Shown one piece after another: positions 7,677-22,979 of a DNA stretch of 34,137 nucleotides. Origin of the DNA: Pirellulaceae bacterium (GTDB taxonomy: Bacteria > Planctomycetota > Planctomycetia > Pirellulales > Pirellulaceae). The DNA lies in the NCBI GenBank assembly GCA_022446825.1, contig JAKVBY010000042.1, positions 1-34,137 on the forward strand. Reading direction: 5' to 3'. Numbering within the stretch: the stretch's first letter is position 1; every line of letters begins with the position of its first letter. A program made the translations under genes and the position numbers. The notes under the pieces are model-generated. The model was not told the DNA's origin, searched no databases, and saw only the letters and a list, made by a program, of their open reading frames with translations.

Positions 7677-8390
7677 GTGTCTCACAATGGTGAATCTCCC
7701 TTTCAACAGATTTTCATTCTAACGAGTGAAAAAGTTCAGCTCAGCAGGCACGCCTTGTTGGCATGGATCGCCGCATCCGATGGCGAGATTACCAGTGATG
7801 AACATAAGCTCTTACAGGAAATAGCCAATCCACACCAACACTCCACGGAATTCCACGTGGCGCTCGAAGCAGCCAGAACCTGCAAATCGGACGAACTTAT
7901 TCTGGCCTGTGAAACGATGCGCGACCAACCCTTAAAAACGCGTACCGAGTTTTTAAGATACGCAGTTATGGTCGCAATTGCCGACCGAAAATTTACGACG
8001 ACGGAAAACTTCCTCTTACGATTCTATTCCGAGCTAACCGGAATTGCCATCGATTCTATCTACCAAGATTTGGCCGGTCACCCGCTGCCGTTGCCAGGCG
8101 ACCCGAGTTCTTTGACGTGGTGGGAGGCGTATGAACGTGATGCTGCCAGCAAAGAGAAACGCAAAACATCCTCACAAAGCACACTCGATGAGATGTCACG
8201 TAAAGAGGCGTTATCCATTTTAGGTCTGCCTGATGACGCCCAAGAAAACGAGATTCGCAAATCATACCATCGACTGGCGAACAAACATCACCCTGATCGT
8301 TTCGTAGATCTTGGACCCAACGCGGAAAAAGCAGCGGCCAAGAAATTTTCCCGTATCAAAGAAGCCTACGAAATCTTATCAACCAACTGA
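7677..8390 (+). CDS. TerB-like / DnaJ-domain co-chaperone
   Basis: This encodes 237 residues. Residues about 15-135 form an all-helical TerB/DjlA-like domain (LLAWIAASDGEITSDEHKLL, then YAVMVAIADRKFTTTENFLL, two similar acidic-hairpin motifs). Residues about 175-237 are a J-domain with YHRLANKHHPDRF and the essential HPD triad at 205-207, followed by KFSRIKEAYEIL. The J-domain should stimulate the ATPase of a DnaK-type Hsp70, and the TerB-like part would select the client or location. Unlike E. coli DjlA there is no membrane segment. The start is GTG 7677, with AGGAG seven bases upstream. The next gene starts one base after the stop and probably encodes a membrane partner. Confidence 0.88.
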   Translation: MSHNGESPFQQIFILTSEKVQLSRHALLAWIAASDGEITSDEHKLLQEIANPHQHSTEFHVALEAARTCKSDELILACETMRDQPLKTRTEFLRYAVMVAIADRKFTTTENFLLRFYSELTGIAIDSIYQDLAGHPLPLPGDPSSLTWWEAYERDAASKEKRKTSSQSTLDEMSRKEALSILGLPDDAQENEIRKSYHRLANKHHPDRFVDLGPNAEKAAAKKFSRIKEAYEILSTN

Positions 8391-9472: not shown

Positions 9473-11416
9473 TCATTTTTCTGTCTCTTCCAGGGTTGCT
9501 TTCAATTGCTCTGGAGTAATACGCCCCGCCGCCAACATGCCAGCCGCCTGAGCTGCATAAAGTCGGCCAAAGTAAGCATCAACGCCTTTCCAACCGATCG
9601 TCGAGAGACGATTCCCAACGTCAAACGCAAGCAAGTGTGACTCTTTGTCTGCCTCATAAATCTCGAGCAAAATACTCACAGTCCGCGCAACTTGTTTTGG
9701 CGTGAGGACAACCTGTGATCGCTCTCGATGAATTCCTGCCACACAAATCTTTGCCGCACAGCTCGGACACCACTCGAGGTTCTCCCCCGCACTCGGTACA
9801 CCCGATTCATGCAAATGCTTCACAGCGCACTCCCAGCAAAATACTTTTTCACATTCCGAACAGACAAACTGTTCCATCATCCAAAATGTCTTGCGGACCT
9901 TGCGCACAAATACGCTATCGTCAAGTCGGTTCTCAGAAACGAAGAAACGAACGTTTCTGTCCTCCGCTGAAAACACCGGTCGTGTACAGACGCTGCAGGC
10001 CAGGCCGTCGTCCGGCAAGGAAGCGTGTACATCATCATGAATGCGCACCCGTGGGGACTTGAGGCTCAGCGCCGGTTCGGCAGGAGCCTCCTGGGGTTCT
10101 GCTACATTCTGGGAGGGCGTTTCTTTTCCAGGCGGATCTTTCACAAACGTCGGATCCGCTCGCGAACGCAATTCTTGACGGGCCAGTTTGTTAGCAGCCG
10201 ACGTTTCACAGCGTTTGGAACGTGGGCCGGCCGGATCACGCAGATCCATTGCCACCACATCATCCAAAGCGGCCAATTGACGAATTTGCTCGTCGGTGAA
10301 GTCCCCAGGCGCTTTGATCAGCCAATCTTCAATCGCTTTGAGAGAGCACTCACTCAAAGCCGGCTCTTTTGTCAACTTAAGCATAAACGGCAAAGCCTTG
10401 ATATCACCGATCGACACCAATGTCTCGAGAGATTGCGGAACCCAATCTAAGCTATTCCATTCGGGATTCTTTTGCTCCTTCACTTCGGTCAACCGATTAA
10501 AAACGTCTTCCACAATCGGACGAATGGAAGCGCTCGCACATTCATTGACGGTTTCCCAATCGCCACCAGCGACGGCTTTGTTGGCCAATGCCTCGAGAGC
10601 CTCGAAGGCCCGATTGCGAAAATCACGATCGTCGTCGTCAAGATGTTTCCGCAAGTGGGGAATGGCAATCGCCTCTTCGATGTGTCCCAAGGCAACCATC
10701 GACTCGCGTTTTAATTCTTCGGAATCTCCTTCCAGTAAGTTCGAGAGGGCGACAATGGCGCTGTATTCTTTGATTGCTCCCAAAGCGCGAATCGCACAAA
10801 CGCGGACCTTTGAATTCTCATGTTTCAATGCTTGGAGCAAATGTGATGATGCCAAGGAACCGTAACTGACCATCGCGTCCTGCCCCGCCAGACGACACTT
10901 CTCATAATCGTCTTGCAGAATGAGTAACAACGGCACAATCGCACGTTCATCCGCAATATCACCTAGCGCTCGCGCCGCGGCCGCGCGGACATCTGCAGAA
11001 GCATCAGTGAGTGACGAAATCAGCGACTCCACTCCAGATTGGTCATTGAGTAGACCCAAGGCAGCAGCGGCGCCTTCGCGTAAGCGGTCGTTGTCACTCT
11101 TACTCGCCGCAATTAATTGAGGCACAACCGCATTGCCAAAACTGGTGATGGCAACTTTCACCGCCTGACCTGCATCCTCGTCTTTTTCTTCCAAGGCGAT
11201 TACCAAAGGCACAACGGCCTGATCGTCTCCGATCTCGCCTAACGCGGCAGCCGCTGCTCGACGTACCGAGGGATCTTCATGCTTGAGGGCTGAAGCTAGT
11301 GGAAAAACGGAGTTCGCATGCTGAATTTTCCCCAGCCACTCGGCTGCTTTACAGATCTTCTCGGGTTTCTTGGAGTTCAATCGGCGAGTAGCCGTCAAAG
11401 TCTTAAAGAACTTCAT
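9473..11416 (-). CDS. HEAT-repeat protein with C-terminal eight-cysteine (RING/FYVE-like) zinc module
   Basis: This encodes 647 residues. Residues about 15-380 are HEAT/PBS-lyase-type repeats (units such as VRRAAAAALGEIGDDQAVVP and VRAAAARALGDIADERAIVP), which form a curved scaffold. A Pro/Glu-rich linker at about 400-465 follows. Then come four CxxC pairs: C474/C477, C519/C522, C527/C530 and C550/C553. The segment CSECEKVFCWEC (519-530) has the spacing of the second and third ligand pairs in FYVE and some RING cross-brace fingers. The last 90 residues are helical (SILLEIYEADKESHLLAFDV). There is no signal peptide, so it is probably cytoplasmic. It lies 28 bases downstream of the PilT-like ATPase gene on the same strand, so the two are likely co-transcribed. 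Repeats are certain; the zinc-module type is a pattern match. Confidence 0.8.
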   Translation of the reverse strand: MKFFKTLTATRRLNSKKPEKICKAAEWLGKIQHANSVFPLASALKHEDPSVRRAAAAALGEIGDDQAVVPLVIALEEKDEDAGQAVKVAITSFGNAVVPQLIAASKSDNDRLREGAAAALGLLNDQSGVESLISSLTDASADVRAAAARALGDIADERAIVPLLLILQDDYEKCRLAGQDAMVSYGSLASSHLLQALKHENSKVRVCAIRALGAIKEYSAIVALSNLLEGDSEELKRESMVALGHIEEAIAIPHLRKHLDDDDRDFRNRAFEALEALANKAVAGGDWETVNECASASIRPIVEDVFNRLTEVKEQKNPEWNSLDWVPQSLETLVSIGDIKALPFMLKLTKEPALSECSLKAIEDWLIKAPGDFTDEQIRQLAALDDVVAMDLRDPAGPRSKRCETSAANKLARQELRSRADPTFVKDPPGKETPSQNVAEPQEAPAEPALSLKSPRVRIHDDVHASLPDDGLACSVCTRPVFSAEDRNVRFFVSENRLDDSVFVRKVRKTFWMMEQFVCSECEKVFCWECAVKHLHESGVPSAGENLEWCPSCAAKICVAGIHRERSQVVLTPKQVARTVSILLEIYEADKESHLLAFDVGNRLSTIGWKGVDAYFGRLYAAQAAGMLAAGRITPEQLKATLEETEK

Positions 11417-11444: not shown

Positions 11445-12797
11445 CTACTGAGTAAAATCCAGCTTTTTGAAACCTTGCATTGTCTTCTCATCAATGAGTC
11501 CACGTTCAAGTAAATCATCCAAGCTACTCTTAAGCGTATACATGCCCATACCGCGACTGGTCTGTAAGACCGTCGACATTTGACTGAAACGGCCTTCGCG
11601 GATCATGTTGGATATAGCACTGTTACACATCATCAGTTCCGTTGCTGGGACTCTGCCACGAGACGGGCTCGGTAAGAGCGTTTGATACAAAACACCAACC
11701 AGACTGGTGGAAAGCTGCTGGCAAACACTCCCGGCGTGTTCGGGGGGGAACATGTTGACTACCCGTTGCAAAGCAGATGCCGTGTCGGGAGCGTGAACCG
11801 TGGTAATCACCAAATGGCCTGTTTCTGCCGCACGCATCGCTGACAAGAGAACTTCAGGATCCAACAATTCGCCGACGACAATCACGTCCGGGTCCTGACG
11901 CAACACCCGCCGCAAAGCATTTGCGTAGGAATGGGTATCTGATCCTAATTCTCGTTGCTTTACAACACATTTTTGACTTTGGTGCATATACTCAACCGGG
12001 TCCTCAATCGTGATGATGATATGATTCTCTGTAGTGTTGAGATATTGAATCATCGCTGCCAGAGTGGTCGTTTTCCCAGATCCTGTCGCACCTGCAATCA
12101 AAATCAAACCGGCTTTTTGTTTGCAGAACTCTCGCATCGGTTCCGCTGGCAATCCAAGCTCTGTAAAGGACTTGATCTGTGTAGGAATATTCCGCAACGC
12201 CGCTTCAAGATAACCACGTTGCCAATGCATGTTGACGCGCCAGCGAGCATGAATGTCAGGAGAAATCGCAAAATCTAATTCGCGTTCTTCTTCTAGATAT
12301 TTAATCTGATGTGGCAGAATTAACGGATACATCATCGCCGCCACTTCATCTTCCATGATGGGTTCGGTTCCCATCGGAATCACTTTGCCGTGCTTGCGCA
12401 TCATCGGCGCTCGACCGGTCGTTAAATGCACATCCGTCGCACCCGCTTTGCGTGCTTCTTCTAGTAATCGATAGATGTCGAGTTTTTCGATTGCTTCATC
12501 GAGTAACTCGAGGTGCTCCTCTTTGATTTTGTAGAAAGAGGCTTCCAGCTGAAACTCGTCACGATCGGCTAATGGTTCCACTTTGGTGATCTGAAGTGCA
12601 CAAGGAGCAATTGTATCCGTTCCCGGAATATACAAGTCGGCAAGCAGTACCGTTCCAGCAGGCACGATCTGTTTCGAATAAAACTGGATCCCCTGGCGAT
12701 TCAAACCATGGGAAATGAGTTCTTGTCCAAGTCCCTTTCGCTTACCGTTCTCATGCTCCCAATACATGATTGCAATCCGAATCTTGCGATATTCCAC
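11445..12797 (-). CDS. PilT-type ATPase with extra N-terminal (PilZ-like?) domain
   Basis: This 450-residue secretion/pilus ATPase has a PilT-like core at about 105-450. Visible motifs are Walker A GATGSGKT (236-243), the Asp box IITIEDPVEYMHQ (261-273), Walker B-type DVIVVGELLDPEV (304-316), and the His box TGHLVITTVHAPDT (His328, His335). PilT proteins usually read GEMRD at the Walker B glutamate. Here Glu310 is kept but the arginine is replaced (GELLD). Residues about 1-100 are not part of normal PilT (about 345 residues). They look like a beta-barrel of PilZ size, but the RxxxR and D/NxSxxG c-di-GMP motifs are not clear. GTG 12797 is chosen because AGAGGA lies about six bases upstream. 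No pilin or assembly genes are nearby. The core suggests filament retraction or a related motor function. Confidence 0.85.
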   Translation of the reverse strand: MEYRKIRIAIMYWEHENGKRKGLGQELISHGLNRQGIQFYSKQIVPAGTVLLADLYIPGTDTIAPCALQITKVEPLADRDEFQLEASFYKIKEEHLELLDEAIEKLDIYRLLEEARKAGATDVHLTTGRAPMMRKHGKVIPMGTEPIMEDEVAAMMYPLILPHQIKYLEEERELDFAISPDIHARWRVNMHWQRGYLEAALRNIPTQIKSFTELGLPAEPMREFCKQKAGLILIAGATGSGKTTTLAAMIQYLNTTENHIIITIEDPVEYMHQSQKCVVKQRELGSDTHSYANALRRVLRQDPDVIVVGELLDPEVLLSAMRAAETGHLVITTVHAPDTASALQRVVNMFPPEHAGSVCQQLSTSLVGVLYQTLLPSPSRGRVPATELMMCNSAISNMIREGRFSQMSTVLQTSRGMGMYTLKSSLDDLLERGLIDEKTMQGFKKLDFTQ

Positions 12798-18170: not shown

Positions 18171-21044
18171 TTGAAAGTTGTGACGTTGTCCCCAGAATCG
18201 ATCGAACTCCGTGGCGTCGAAGTCCACAACTTAAAACATCTTGATCTGGACATTCCTCGCCATAAACTCGTTGTCATCTGCGGGGTTAGCGGCAGTGGTA
18301 AGACAAGCCTCGCTTTAGATACCCTCTACGCAGAAGGACAACGCCGTTACATCGAAAGCTTTTCAGCGCACACACGGCAATTTCTTGAACAACTCGACAA
18401 GCCGTCTGCGGAGCGCATAGACGGAATTCCGCCTGCCATTTCAGTAACGAGAAAAACCACTACTAGAAACAGTCGCGCCACTGTCGGCACCACAACAGAA
18501 ACCGCTGATTATCTGCGTCTATTGTTCGCCAAAATTGGTCGCATCTACTGTCCAGGTTGTCACTGCCAGGTGACCCGTGATTCACCAGCCAGTTCAGCAG
18601 AACGTTTGTCGACAATGGCTACGGGTGCACGGTTCATGGTTGGATTTTCAAAATCAGTCGAGCACACCAGCTATTTGCCTCAAGTTTTTGACGAACTCCG
18701 CGAAGACGGATTTGTCCGGGCGATGCTTGGTACACAAACCGTTGACCTCTCCAAAAAGACATCGCTTGATTTAATAGAAGACGACGAGACAAATCTGGAA
18801 CTGCTCGTGATTGTCGATCGCTTCAAGAACGGCAGGACATCAGAACAAAGGCTACGAGATTCATTAGAAACGGCGTTCGCCAAGGGAGCAGGCCAATGCT
18901 TGGCCTTGGTCGAATCGGCTACCGCTGACTTTCGCGACCAAGATGGAAGAAAATGGCAACGGATTGGATTTAGTCAGAGCTTGGCCTGCCAGCTCTGTGA
19001 ACGGGAATTTCCCGTGCCAGAACCGCGACTCTACAGCTTTAATAGTCCACTTGGTGCCTGCGCAGCATGTGAAGGGTTTGGACGTGTCATCGACATCGAC
19101 ATGGATTTGGTCGTACCCAATCGCGACAAATCCTTGCGGGAAGGTGCCATCGCTCCTTGGAACTCGCCCGCTTACGCTCATGAATTGGACGAGTTGCTGG
19201 CGTTAGCAGACGACTTTGACATCCCAGTCGATGTCCCTTTCAAAGAACTAAGCGAATCCCAAATCACTCGCATCCAAACCGGCATTCCAGAACGGGAATT
19301 TGATGGATTAAATGGCTTTTTCGAACGGCTGAAAAAACACAAACAGAAATTGCCTCTGCGAGTTTTTCTATCGCGTTGGAAAAGTTATCGATCATGCGCT
19401 GCTTGCCAAGGCAACCGCTTGACGGACGACTCATTGGCAACACAGATTGGAGGAAAACATATTGCCGCAATTTCGCAGCTACAGATCGACGACGCGTTGA
19501 CTTTTTTTCAGTCTCTAAAACTCAACGCATGGGAACAAACGGTCAGCCGTACGATGCTCGAACAAATCGTCTCGCGTTTGGGCTATTTGCAGGCAGTCGG
19601 ACTGGGATACCTTTCACTCGATCGCACACTTAGCACACTTAGTGGCGGCGAGTCTCAGCGCGTCGCTTTGACCTCGGCTCTCGGTTCTAGCCTCGTCAAC
19701 ATGCTTTACGTACTCGACGAACCGTCTGTTGGACTCCATCCACGGGATGTTGAACGATTAATCGCAGCAGTCCAAAATCTGCGTGCTCGTGGTAATTCCG
19801 TAATCGTCGTTGAACACGAAGAAGCAATGCTCCGAGCAGCGGATCAATTGATCGAAATTGGTCCGGGCGCTGGTCGCAGCGGCGGCACCTTAGTGTTTCA
19901 GGGATCCTTGGATGAAATGCAAAGTTACAAAGAAAGTTTAACGAACGATTATCTTAGTGGCCGCCGCGGAATGTCTCTGCCTAATTCACGGCGAACCGCC
20001 ACACGAGGGCGCATCAAACTTGTGGGGGCCAGGGGCAATAATCTCAAGAATCTCTCCGTCGAATTCCCCCTAGGTGTCATGTGCTTAATCACCGGCGTTA
20101 GCGGTTCTGGAAAAAGTTCGCTCGTTCAAGACACGCTTTACCCGGCTCTCTGTCAGAGAAAACAAAAAGAGTCTCATCCTTCCTTACCCTTCGATGATGT
20201 ATTGGGCGATGGGCAAATCGATGACATTGTGCTCGTCGACCAATCTCCCATTGGGCGGTCCCCACGATCTAACCCGGTAACCTACATTAAGGCTTTCGAC
20301 GAAATCCGCAAAGTATTTGCGGAGACGATCGAAGCGCGAACCCACAATTACACGGCGGGCCATTTTAGTTTCAACGTCGATGGTGGCCGGTGCTCAAAAT
20401 GCCAGGGGGAAGGTTTTATCGAAATCGACATGCAGTTTCTGGCCGATGTTTATATGAAATGTACTCAATGCCAGGGCCAGCGATATCGCAAAGAAATCCT
20501 TCAGGTAACCTACCGTGGTCGCACGATTGCTGACGTGCTTAAGATGACCGCTCGCGAAGCTTTTTCCTTCTTCCGTGGCCAACCTAAGGTTCAAGCAAAA
20601 TTGAATCGCCTCATCGAAGTCGGTTTAGACTACCTGCAACTTGGGCAACCCGCGAATACACTCTCGGGAGGGGAATCGCAACGACTCAAGCTCGCCGCTC
20701 ACATGTCTTCCAAAAGCCATAATCGCACACTGTTTATCCTTGACGAACCTACCACCGGTCTACATTTTTTTGACGTTGTTAACCTGATCGATTGCTTCGA
20801 CGCGTTGTTAGCCGTCGGTCATTCCCTAATTGTTGTTGAACACAATCTACAATTAATGAGAGCAGCTGATTACATTATCGACCTTGGGCCGGGCGCAGCC
20901 GACGAAGGTGGTGAAGTAGTTGTCACAGGAACACCAGAGCAAGTCGTCCAATGCGATCGTTCTGTTACTTCAAGATTCCTTGCCGAATCACTCACCACCG
21001 CACAAGATTATACCGCTGCTATTGATGAAATTTTAACGGAGTGA
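18171..21044 (+). CDS. UvrA-family excision-repair ATPase
   Basis: This 957-residue protein has the double ABC architecture of UvrA. Walker A1 is GVSGSGKT (38-45). An insertion carries CPGC (127-130). The first zinc site is C273/C276 with C297/C300, and the first signature LSGGESQRV is followed by LDEPSVGLHPRD. The second half has GVSGSGKSSL, the zinc finger CSKCQGEGF...CTQC, LSGGESQRL and LDEPTTGLHFFD. UvrA scans DNA for bulky lesions and loads UvrB. TTG 18171 is the annotated start, and GTG 18180 is possible; neither has a clear ribosome-binding site. Text around HTRQFLEQLDKPSAERIDGI and GSSLVNMLYVLDEPSVGLHPRD differs from what I expect for the housekeeping UvrA. It may be a second, divergent UvrA paralogue. 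The Gly-rich tail is absent. It starts a three-gene unit. Confidence 0.9.
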   Translation: MKVVTLSPESIELRGVEVHNLKHLDLDIPRHKLVVICGVSGSGKTSLALDTLYAEGQRRYIESFSAHTRQFLEQLDKPSAERIDGIPPAISVTRKTTTRNSRATVGTTTETADYLRLLFAKIGRIYCPGCHCQVTRDSPASSAERLSTMATGARFMVGFSKSVEHTSYLPQVFDELREDGFVRAMLGTQTVDLSKKTSLDLIEDDETNLELLVIVDRFKNGRTSEQRLRDSLETAFAKGAGQCLALVESATADFRDQDGRKWQRIGFSQSLACQLCEREFPVPEPRLYSFNSPLGACAACEGFGRVIDIDMDLVVPNRDKSLREGAIAPWNSPAYAHELDELLALADDFDIPVDVPFKELSESQITRIQTGIPEREFDGLNGFFERLKKHKQKLPLRVFLSRWKSYRSCAACQGNRLTDDSLATQIGGKHIAAISQLQIDDALTFFQSLKLNAWEQTVSRTMLEQIVSRLGYLQAVGLGYLSLDRTLSTLSGGESQRVALTSALGSSLVNMLYVLDEPSVGLHPRDVERLIAAVQNLRARGNSVIVVEHEEAMLRAADQLIEIGPGAGRSGGTLVFQGSLDEMQSYKESLTNDYLSGRRGMSLPNSRRTATRGRIKLVGARGNNLKNLSVEFPLGVMCLITGVSGSGKSSLVQDTLYPALCQRKQKESHPSLPFDDVLGDGQIDDIVLVDQSPIGRSPRSNPVTYIKAFDEIRKVFAETIEARTHNYTAGHFSFNVDGGRCSKCQGEGFIEIDMQFLADVYMKCTQCQGQRYRKEILQVTYRGRTIADVLKMTAREAFSFFRGQPKVQAKLNRLIEVGLDYLQLGQPANTLSGGESQRLKLAAHMSSKSHNRTLFILDEPTTGLHFFDVVNLIDCFDALLAVGHSLIVVEHNLQLMRAADYIIDLGPGAADEGGEVVVTGTPEQVVQCDRSVTSRFLAESLTTAQDYTAAIDEILTE

Positions 21045-21048
21045 ACGC

Positions 21049-21936
21049 ATGTCCGCTGACACACGGGTCGATATATTTTACAACGAAGTCAGTTCGCTTT
21101 CCGCATCGATTTACGTGCGCGGCAATGATTTTGCAGATACCGAAGGCGTCACGTTGCAGGGCACAGTCCAAGGCCCAGAATGTCACAATGCCACCACGCT
21201 TCCCGCCACCATCCCGTTGCGAACCGTACATGGTGCGGACCCGTTCCTAGCAAAAGCCGTCGTCCCCGATCCCTGTTGCTGGTCCCCACATTTACCTGCA
21301 ACTTATCGTGTTCGCGTCGAGATCGTTCGCAAAGATATCGTGGTCGCTGTGAGCGAACACACTGTGGGATTAAAAAGTTTACACACGGATGAGAATAGCC
21401 TCTATCTTGAATCTCGCCGCTGGGTCCTGCGCGCGGCCTATCTTTCCAAACCCAACGAAGTAAACCTTAATGCCTGGCGTAAAACCGGACTTGCCATGTA
21501 CGTAGAGGAACCCTCCGAGAAGTTGTGTCAGCAAGCAAGCGAACTTGGCATTCTCATTATTGGCTCCATTACCAACGCCAGTCACGATATTGCTGCACGA
21601 CTTCGTGAATTGTCGTGTTGGCCTGCCCTGGCCATCGCAGTTCTTGATCCCAGCGTCCAAAACCTCGCTCATTTGTCTCGTTTCGCTCCCAACCTGTTGC
21701 TAGCTCAACACATCGATGGAGAATCCCTGAATCAAGTCTGTCCAGACTGTGCTTTGGTCTTTGCTGATGTGAGTAAAATATCCGATTTATCCGCTATTTC
21801 AGCTCAATCATACTGCCCTATCATTGCTACTCGCCAAGTTGAAACAGAGCTGAACATCACAAATCGACGTACAGCATGCGATCATTTGCAACGGGACCTT
21901 GCACCTATCGGTGATTTCGCGGGATATTGCGTGTAA
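21049..21936 (+). CDS. Hypothetical protein resembling the non-catalytic part of a GH2 glycosidase
   Basis: This encodes 295 residues with no signal peptide and no assigned family. Residues about 75-135 (DPCCWSPHLPATYRVRVEIV, then VGLKSLHTDENSLYLESRRW) resemble the end of the immunoglobulin-like domain and the entry to the barrel in GH2 beta-galactosidases, where the pattern is P..W.P..P.LY.....fG.R....... NG....RG. The rest has alternating strands and helices (LAMYVEEPSEKLCQQASELG, ALAIAVLDPS, NLLLAQHIDGES), as in half a beta/alpha barrel. The catalytic Asn-Glu and nucleophile Glu motifs are not visible. GGAG lies 7-8 bases upstream of ATG 21049, overlapping the uvrA-like stop region. Its TAA overlaps the ATG of the next gene (TAATG). 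Tight spacing on both sides suggests one operon. The GH2 resemblance is an inference. Confidence 0.65.
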   Translation: MSADTRVDIFYNEVSSLSASIYVRGNDFADTEGVTLQGTVQGPECHNATTLPATIPLRTVHGADPFLAKAVVPDPCCWSPHLPATYRVRVEIVRKDIVVAVSEHTVGLKSLHTDENSLYLESRRWVLRAAYLSKPNEVNLNAWRKTGLAMYVEEPSEKLCQQASELGILIIGSITNASHDIAARLRELSCWPALAIAVLDPSVQNLAHLSRFAPNLLLAQHIDGESLNQVCPDCALVFADVSKISDLSAISAQSYCPIIATRQVETELNITNRRTACDHLQRDLAPIGDFAGYCV

Positions 21937-22979
21937 TGCCTGTAAGAGAAAACAGCCTCGACCGTTATACACGCCAAATGCGTTATGCCCCGTTAGGCGA
22001 AGACGGCCAGCGACAACTCCTAAAAAGTCGCGCCTTGATTTGTGGTTGCGGCGCTCTGGGGTCAGTTCTTGCCAACACCCTTGCCCGTGCAGGCGTCGGA
22101 TTCTTAAGAATTGTCGACCGCGACTTTCTTGAAAAGAACAATCTACAACGCCAAGTTCTATTTGACGAAGAAGATGTATCGTCGGGAGTTCCAAAAGCAG
22201 TTGCCGCAGCACGACGTTTACGAAAAATCAATTCCGAAATTGAAATTGAAGAACACGTCACCGATGTCGACCACACGAACATCGAATCGTTGATTAACGG
22301 ATGCAACATCCTACTAGATGGCACCGACAATTTTGAAACAAGATACCTTCTGAACGATGCTTCCGTAAAATTTGGCATCCCTTGGGTCTATGGTGGTTGC
22401 CTTGGCGCCGAGGGAAAGTCGATGACTATCCTTCCTGGTGAAACACCTTGCATGCGTTGTGTTTTTGAGGACGCTCCGCCCCCCGGAACAACAGCAACAT
22501 GCGATTCTGCTGGAATCCTTAGCCCCATCATTAATGTAATCGCATCCATTCAAGCCAATGAAGCCATCAAGATTCTCAGCGGAAATCGAGATGCGATCAG
22601 CCGCGTGTTGTCGGTCTTCGAACTTTGGGACAATCGCATCTTGCAAGTCAAACTCGATTCCTTAAAAGACCATACCGATTGCCCCGCATGCCACCAACGC
22701 GTGTTTCCTTGGTTAGACGGCGAACGAGGTAGCCATACAGCAATCCTCTGTGGCCGCAATTCGGTGCAGCTTAGTTACCCTGACCGTCAAAATGTGTGCT
22801 TGGAATCACTGGCCAAAAAGTTAGCTACGGTAGGAACCGTGACACAGAATCGATTTCTTTTGCGGCTACAAGTCAATGAGTTCCTCATTACTGTCTTCTC
22901 CGATGGTCGCGCCATTGTTGGAGGCACAGAAGACATTTCTGAAGCGCGTACTTTGTACACGAAATATATCGGCAATTAA
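21936..22979 (+). CDS. MoeB/ThiF-type E1-like adenylyltransferase
   Basis: This 347-residue E1-like enzyme would adenylate the C-terminal glycine of a small sulfur-carrier or ubiquitin-like protein (MoaD, ThiS or a relative). Visible motifs are the nucleotide loop GCGALGS (37-43), the NNLQRQ arginine (Arg72), DGTDNFETRY from Asp128, a Cys4 zinc site (C172, C175, C249, C252), and Cys189 in TATCDSAG, the position of the conserved cysteine in MoeB/ThiF. Residues about 265-347 add a C-terminal domain (LCGRNSVQLSYPD, FLITVFSDGRAIVGGTED). ATG 21936 overlaps the preceding stop. An in-frame TTG 21927 is less likely. No carrier protein is encoded in the window. MoeB, ThiF and MOCS3-like roles cannot be separated. 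Confidence 0.88.
   Translation: MPVRENSLDRYTRQMRYAPLGEDGQRQLLKSRALICGCGALGSVLANTLARAGVGFLRIVDRDFLEKNNLQRQVLFDEEDVSSGVPKAVAAARRLRKINSEIEIEEHVTDVDHTNIESLINGCNILLDGTDNFETRYLLNDASVKFGIPWVYGGCLGAEGKSMTILPGETPCMRCVFEDAPPPGTTATCDSAGILSPIINVIASIQANEAIKILSGNRDAISRVLSVFELWDNRILQVKLDSLKDHTDCPACHQRVFPWLDGERGSHTAILCGRNSVQLSYPDRQNVCLESLAKKLATVGTVTQNRFLLRLQVNEFLITVFSDGRAIVGGTEDISEARTLYTKYIGN

Follow-up and report, generated by a model that had tools for sequence, protein, structure and literature searches.

Does a bacterial HEAT-repeat protein carry a zinc module of the RING or FYVE kind, and what might such a module do there? The question is raised by the gene P0001, which lies in a 34,137-nucleotide stretch of DNA from a Pirellulaceae bacterium (here called the window). 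The source genome is 6.17 Mb in length and comprises 153 contigs. Neighbouring genes in the window include PSCyt, DUF1549/DUF1553 and DUF1501 genes, which are typical of Planctomycetes.

Architecture and distribution of P0001

P0001 is encoded on the reverse strand. Its features are as follows, with the basis of each in brackets:

9473..11416 (-): whole P0001 gene, 647 aa, a HEAT solenoid with a C-terminal putative zinc module (single ORF, ATG start)
10577..11347 (-): HEAT repeats, residues ~24-280 (Pfam HEAT families and structure matches)
10037..10576 (-): middle region or linker, residues 281-460, no family found (Pfam negative for residues 281-441)
9986..9997 (-): first cysteine pair, CSVC, Cys 474/477 (sequence)
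9851..9862 (-): second cysteine pair, CSEC, Cys 519/522 (sequence)
9827..9838 (-): third cysteine pair, CWEC, Cys 527/530, where a modelled helix starts (sequence and both models)
9758..9769 (-): fourth cysteine pair, CPSC, Cys 550/553 (sequence)
9476..9724 (-): C-terminal helical domain, residues 565-647 (four modelled helices at residues 131-204 of the modelled piece P0002, pLDDT blocks 65-84)

The preliminary description of this locus had identified P0001 as a HEAT-repeat protein, and this is confirmed. P0001 scores over the curated Pfam cut-offs for HEAT_2, HEAT, HEAT_PBS and HEAT_EZ, and the HEAT_2 match (E 5.5e-41) reaches 139.2 bits against a cut-off of 27.7, as tandem HEAT repeats. The structural matches of this part are to alphaRep and other HEAT structures. 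P0001 has its repeat sequence in common with other bacterial HEAT-repeat proteins (phycobilin lyase CpcE/NblB-like repeats, alphaRep designs) but differs from the other HEAT-like frames in the loci examined by its cysteines: among 38 such frames, at least three of which are P0001 itself or pieces of it, only P0001 has two or more CxxC pairs. Further frames with both HEAT repeats and CxxC pairs may have been missed because many frames end at locus ends. No Pfam match was found for residues 281-441 (window 10094-10576, -), and none above cut-off for the C-terminal helical domain.

Codon statistics give a coding signature that is in frame over the whole gene and weakest at the cysteine-bearing segment (hereafter the finger). 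The finger scores 0.048 bits/codon in its own frame, whereas none of the five other frames exceeds -0.12, and its flanks likewise score best in their own frame; the signature of the HEAT part is stronger, at 0.289 bits/codon.

The four CxxC pairs are spaced x41, x4 and x19 around the core CSECEKVFCWEC, exactly as first described, and a ninth cysteine of the C-terminal part lies at residue 558. When the pattern C..C-x(5,60)-C..C-x4-C..C-x(8,35)-C..C was searched in 713,860 six-frame residues (the window and 90 loci, L001-L090), it gave three matches, all of them in the P0001 gene, a result that speaks to the rarity of the pattern and not to its folding.

Searches of GTDB contigs, with either the whole protein or the finger as query, and of plasmid, phage and viral contig collections gave no homologue of the module. 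Three genome sets, which overlap so that their counts are not additive, also yielded none: the E-values elsewhere were 0.0058 or worse for the other 18 genomes matching at E up to 0.1 among 241 from the family, 0.0064 or worse for seven others among 396 from the order, and 0.0051 and 0.0078 for two others among 392 from the phylum. No paralogous module occurs in the source genome, where the sole match is P0001 itself. Most of the weak matches contain internal stops, and none of those in seven loci (L038, L039, L048, L049, L053, L089 and L090) keeps the four-pair set. Literature listings and excerpts likewise contained no bacterial protein combining HEAT repeats with a RING-like domain. The case for the module rests on one sequence.

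Family and structural comparisons of the finger

For the finger, Pfam returns 18 families (RING, IBR, B-box and other zinc fingers), all below their cut-offs. The best weak match is to IBR_1 (E 0.00073), among the IBR/RBR half-RING families (PF22191, PF01485). FYVE (PF01363) is matched with an E-value of 0.0052 and 17.3 bits, below its cut-off of 27.8; the alignment covers pairs 2 to 4, starting at profile position 16 and finger residue 48 and leaving out pair 1. As a control, ten shuffles of the finger were made with the cysteines kept in place. The best FYVE score among them was 13.9 bits (E 0.06, in one of the ten), and one of the ten matched IBR_1 with an E-value of 0.00015. Because this shuffled sequence scores better than the finger itself, the IBR match says little beyond cysteine spacing. 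Much of the FYVE signal also comes from cysteine spacing alone, with at most a small excess over the shuffles remaining. At their second pair, FYVE domains carry the basic motif R(R/K)HHCR; P0001 lacks this patch, the corresponding sequence being MMEQFVCSEC. The finger is like FYVE in its CxxC-x4-CxxC core and in having its fourth pair 19 residues on, but with its below-cut-off score and the outcome of the shuffle control the FYVE label is unsupported.

The FYVE profile was also run over related genomes. At E up to 1, matches appeared in 109 of 119 family genomes, but 10 of the 14 control genomes gave matches too, so the scan yields mostly noise. The frames of 16 regions were inspected: one scored over the cut-off, and the others resemble, by eye, multihaem cytochromes, zinc ribbons, kinases and other proteins. 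The single region over the cut-off, also the only one in the 119 family genomes, is a bacterial ORF in genome G003 of the same family (L103:1795-3132, +), with a FYVE domain of 34.1 bits and a typical HHCR-type core. In a search of 97 related genomes for this ORF, just short N-terminal pieces recurred, in its own genome and in a genus-mate. Another frame of mixed composition was seen in genome G008 (L118): its 1594 aa appear by eye to comprise WD-like repeats and small GTPase-like, TIR-like and ABC-type ATPase parts.

AlphaFold was run on the single sequence, with no alignment, for residues 443-647 and for residues 462-572. Modelling followed by a Foldseek search had been proposed in the preliminary description as a check, and its outcome is mixed: both models contain a helix (residues 528-537) that begins inside the third pair, as treble clefs do, but mean pLDDT is low (52.3 and 43.1, respectively) and Foldseek returned no match with an E-value under 0.001 for either model. 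The Foldseek matches were re-ranked with VIA-align. For the finger alone, Z reached up to 5.3, with a ribosomal chain in the top row, and 19 of the 50 rows are titled as RING, U-box or ZZ domains (Z 4.2 to 5.2), values in a range (under 8) that by the tool's own note may mean merely a common arrangement. Most of the other rows are RING proteins as well. The RING-like rows cover all four pairs (model residues ~3-100); with residues 443-647 the highest Z for rows of this type, which include an E2-E3 complex, is 4.3. Since Foldseek picks candidates by sequence as well as shape, the cysteine letters account for part of these rankings. Rows for EpsF (Z 4.7 and 5.2) and OutF prompted a comparison of the C-terminal helices with T2SSF/GspF-like proteins, which failed by sequence: a PF00482 (T2SSF) profile search of the source genome at E up to 10 gave 18 matches, none of them in contig C91.

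Prokaryotic binuclear treble clefs are reportedly the subject of a 2011 paper by Burroughs and colleagues. The cysteines of P0001 supply four candidate metal-binding pairs in order, as a RING-like binuclear treble clef requires. The finger is like RING, U-box and ZZ domains in these four pairs, in the third-pair helix of the models and in the span of the VIA-align rows; it differs from them in the x41 first spacing, in matching no family above cut-off and in its bacterial host, where the scanned neighbours included neither an E2 nor a ubiquitin-like family. PMC4999995 gives interleaved half-sites as a mark of RING-like, PHD, AN1 and FYVE domains. The models and their rankings tentatively favour a cross-brace, in the wide RING-like class of binuclear treble clefs, over two ribbons. 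Of the RING/FYVE-like cross-brace originally suggested, the RING-like part is thus favoured by the pair-3 helix and the VIA-align ranks, and the FYVE part is unsupported. At best, the P0001 module resembles a RING-like structural module, as distinct from a demonstrated member of the RING, IBR or FYVE families.

Genes adjacent to P0001

The gene upstream of P0001 encodes a motor ATPase:

11445..12797 (-): P0003, a PilT/PilU-type ATPase (residues 108-438; TIGR01420) with an extra N-terminal region of ~107 residues

P0003 scores 382.7 bits with TIGR01420, over the cut-off of 319.1. The P0001 gene lies 28 bases downstream on the same strand, and no terminator-like site was found in the gap between them. 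The N-terminal region of P0003 has no Pfam match, and a search with its first 115 residues gave nothing at E up to 0.01 in any of the 239 other genomes among 240 from the family. Among the matches listed outside its own genome, the earliest start of a P0003 alignment is query residue 56, and most start beyond residue 100; the match that starts at residue 56 contains four internal stops. A PilZ domain, guessed by eye for this region, was discarded: PF07238 has no match in the source genome at E up to 10. The adjacency of P0001 and P0003, both with unmatched domains, suggests that the two arrived or evolved together.

Two other parts of the window were noted. A 237-aa frame at 7677-8390 (+) combines a TerB domain with a C-terminal DnaJ domain. 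Within 18171-22979 (+), a 957-aa UvrA-like ATPase with additional matches to the mad3 and mad8 defence models is followed by a 295-aa protein with no Pfam match and a ThiF/E1-like protein.

Proposed role of P0001 and alternatives

The best explanation of these observations, tentative and put at somewhat below an even chance, is that P0001 is a cytoplasmic HEAT scaffold with a two-zinc RING-like module and then a four-helix domain, serving as an adaptor for the PilT-type motor. The scaffold would be lineage-specific, and its HEAT solenoid would bind partners. In the C-terminal part, two zinc ions would organise a binuclear treble clef of the RING-like type whose first loop is enlarged, pairs 1 and 3 holding one zinc and pairs 2 and 4 the other. 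Together with the helical tail that follows it, the zinc module would form another docking element, probably used by the adjacent motor. We infer both the zinc binding and the cross-brace, and a role for the module as a structural or protein-binding unit as opposed to a ubiquitin ligase or lipid binder; P0001 would, on the same footing, be an adaptor of the adjacent motor.

It is rather unlikely that the cysteines instead form two sequential zinc ribbons, or some other non-cross-brace arrangement that merely stabilises the C-terminal part. Zinc ribbons are common in bacteria, several of the weak FYVE-profile matches in relatives are ribbons or multihaem cytochromes on frame reading, and a gap of x41 is long for RING or FYVE; against this, the helix at pair 3 and the four residues between pairs 2 and 3 suit a treble clef, and the VIA-align rows for the finger are mostly RING-like. 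The low model confidence and the lack of homologues would also fit a cysteine cluster with a redox or regulatory function, or a lineage-specific tail that is decaying and has no stable fold, but we consider this quite improbable, as four regular CxxC pairs with an in-frame coding signature are unexpected in decaying sequence.

Two further readings are weaker still. The RING-like rank list, and a ThiF protein about 10 kb away (21927-22979) that also matches the E1 regions of PADLOC E1-E2 models, could be taken to make P0001 an E3-like, RING-type part of a bacterial system for ubiquitin-like conjugation whose E1 would be the ThiF-type enzyme. This is very unlikely, given the neighbour scan described above, the position of the ThiF gene on the opposite strand in a separate cluster, and the ordinary occurrence of ThiF enzymes in cofactor synthesis. 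A true FYVE domain binding phosphoinositides is barely credible: the weak match does exceed all ten cysteine-keeping shuffles, and one relative has a protein over the FYVE cut-off, but P0001 falls below that cut-off, leaves pair 1 outside the profile match, lacks the HHCR patch and has no similarity to the relative's protein.

The adaptor reading can be taken a step further, to a lineage-specific protein whose RING-like module, carried on HEAT repeats, would bind and control a PilT-type motor with an unmatched N-terminal domain of its own. This fuller version is unlikely. The pairing of a HEAT/RING-like protein with such a motor did not turn up in the related genomes that were searched. Should the cross-brace prove real, P0001 would be a bacterial case of a HEAT solenoid fused to a RING-like module whose first loop is unusually long, encoded beside a pilus-type motor, and the known uses of RING-like modules would widen outside ubiquitin and lipid signalling.
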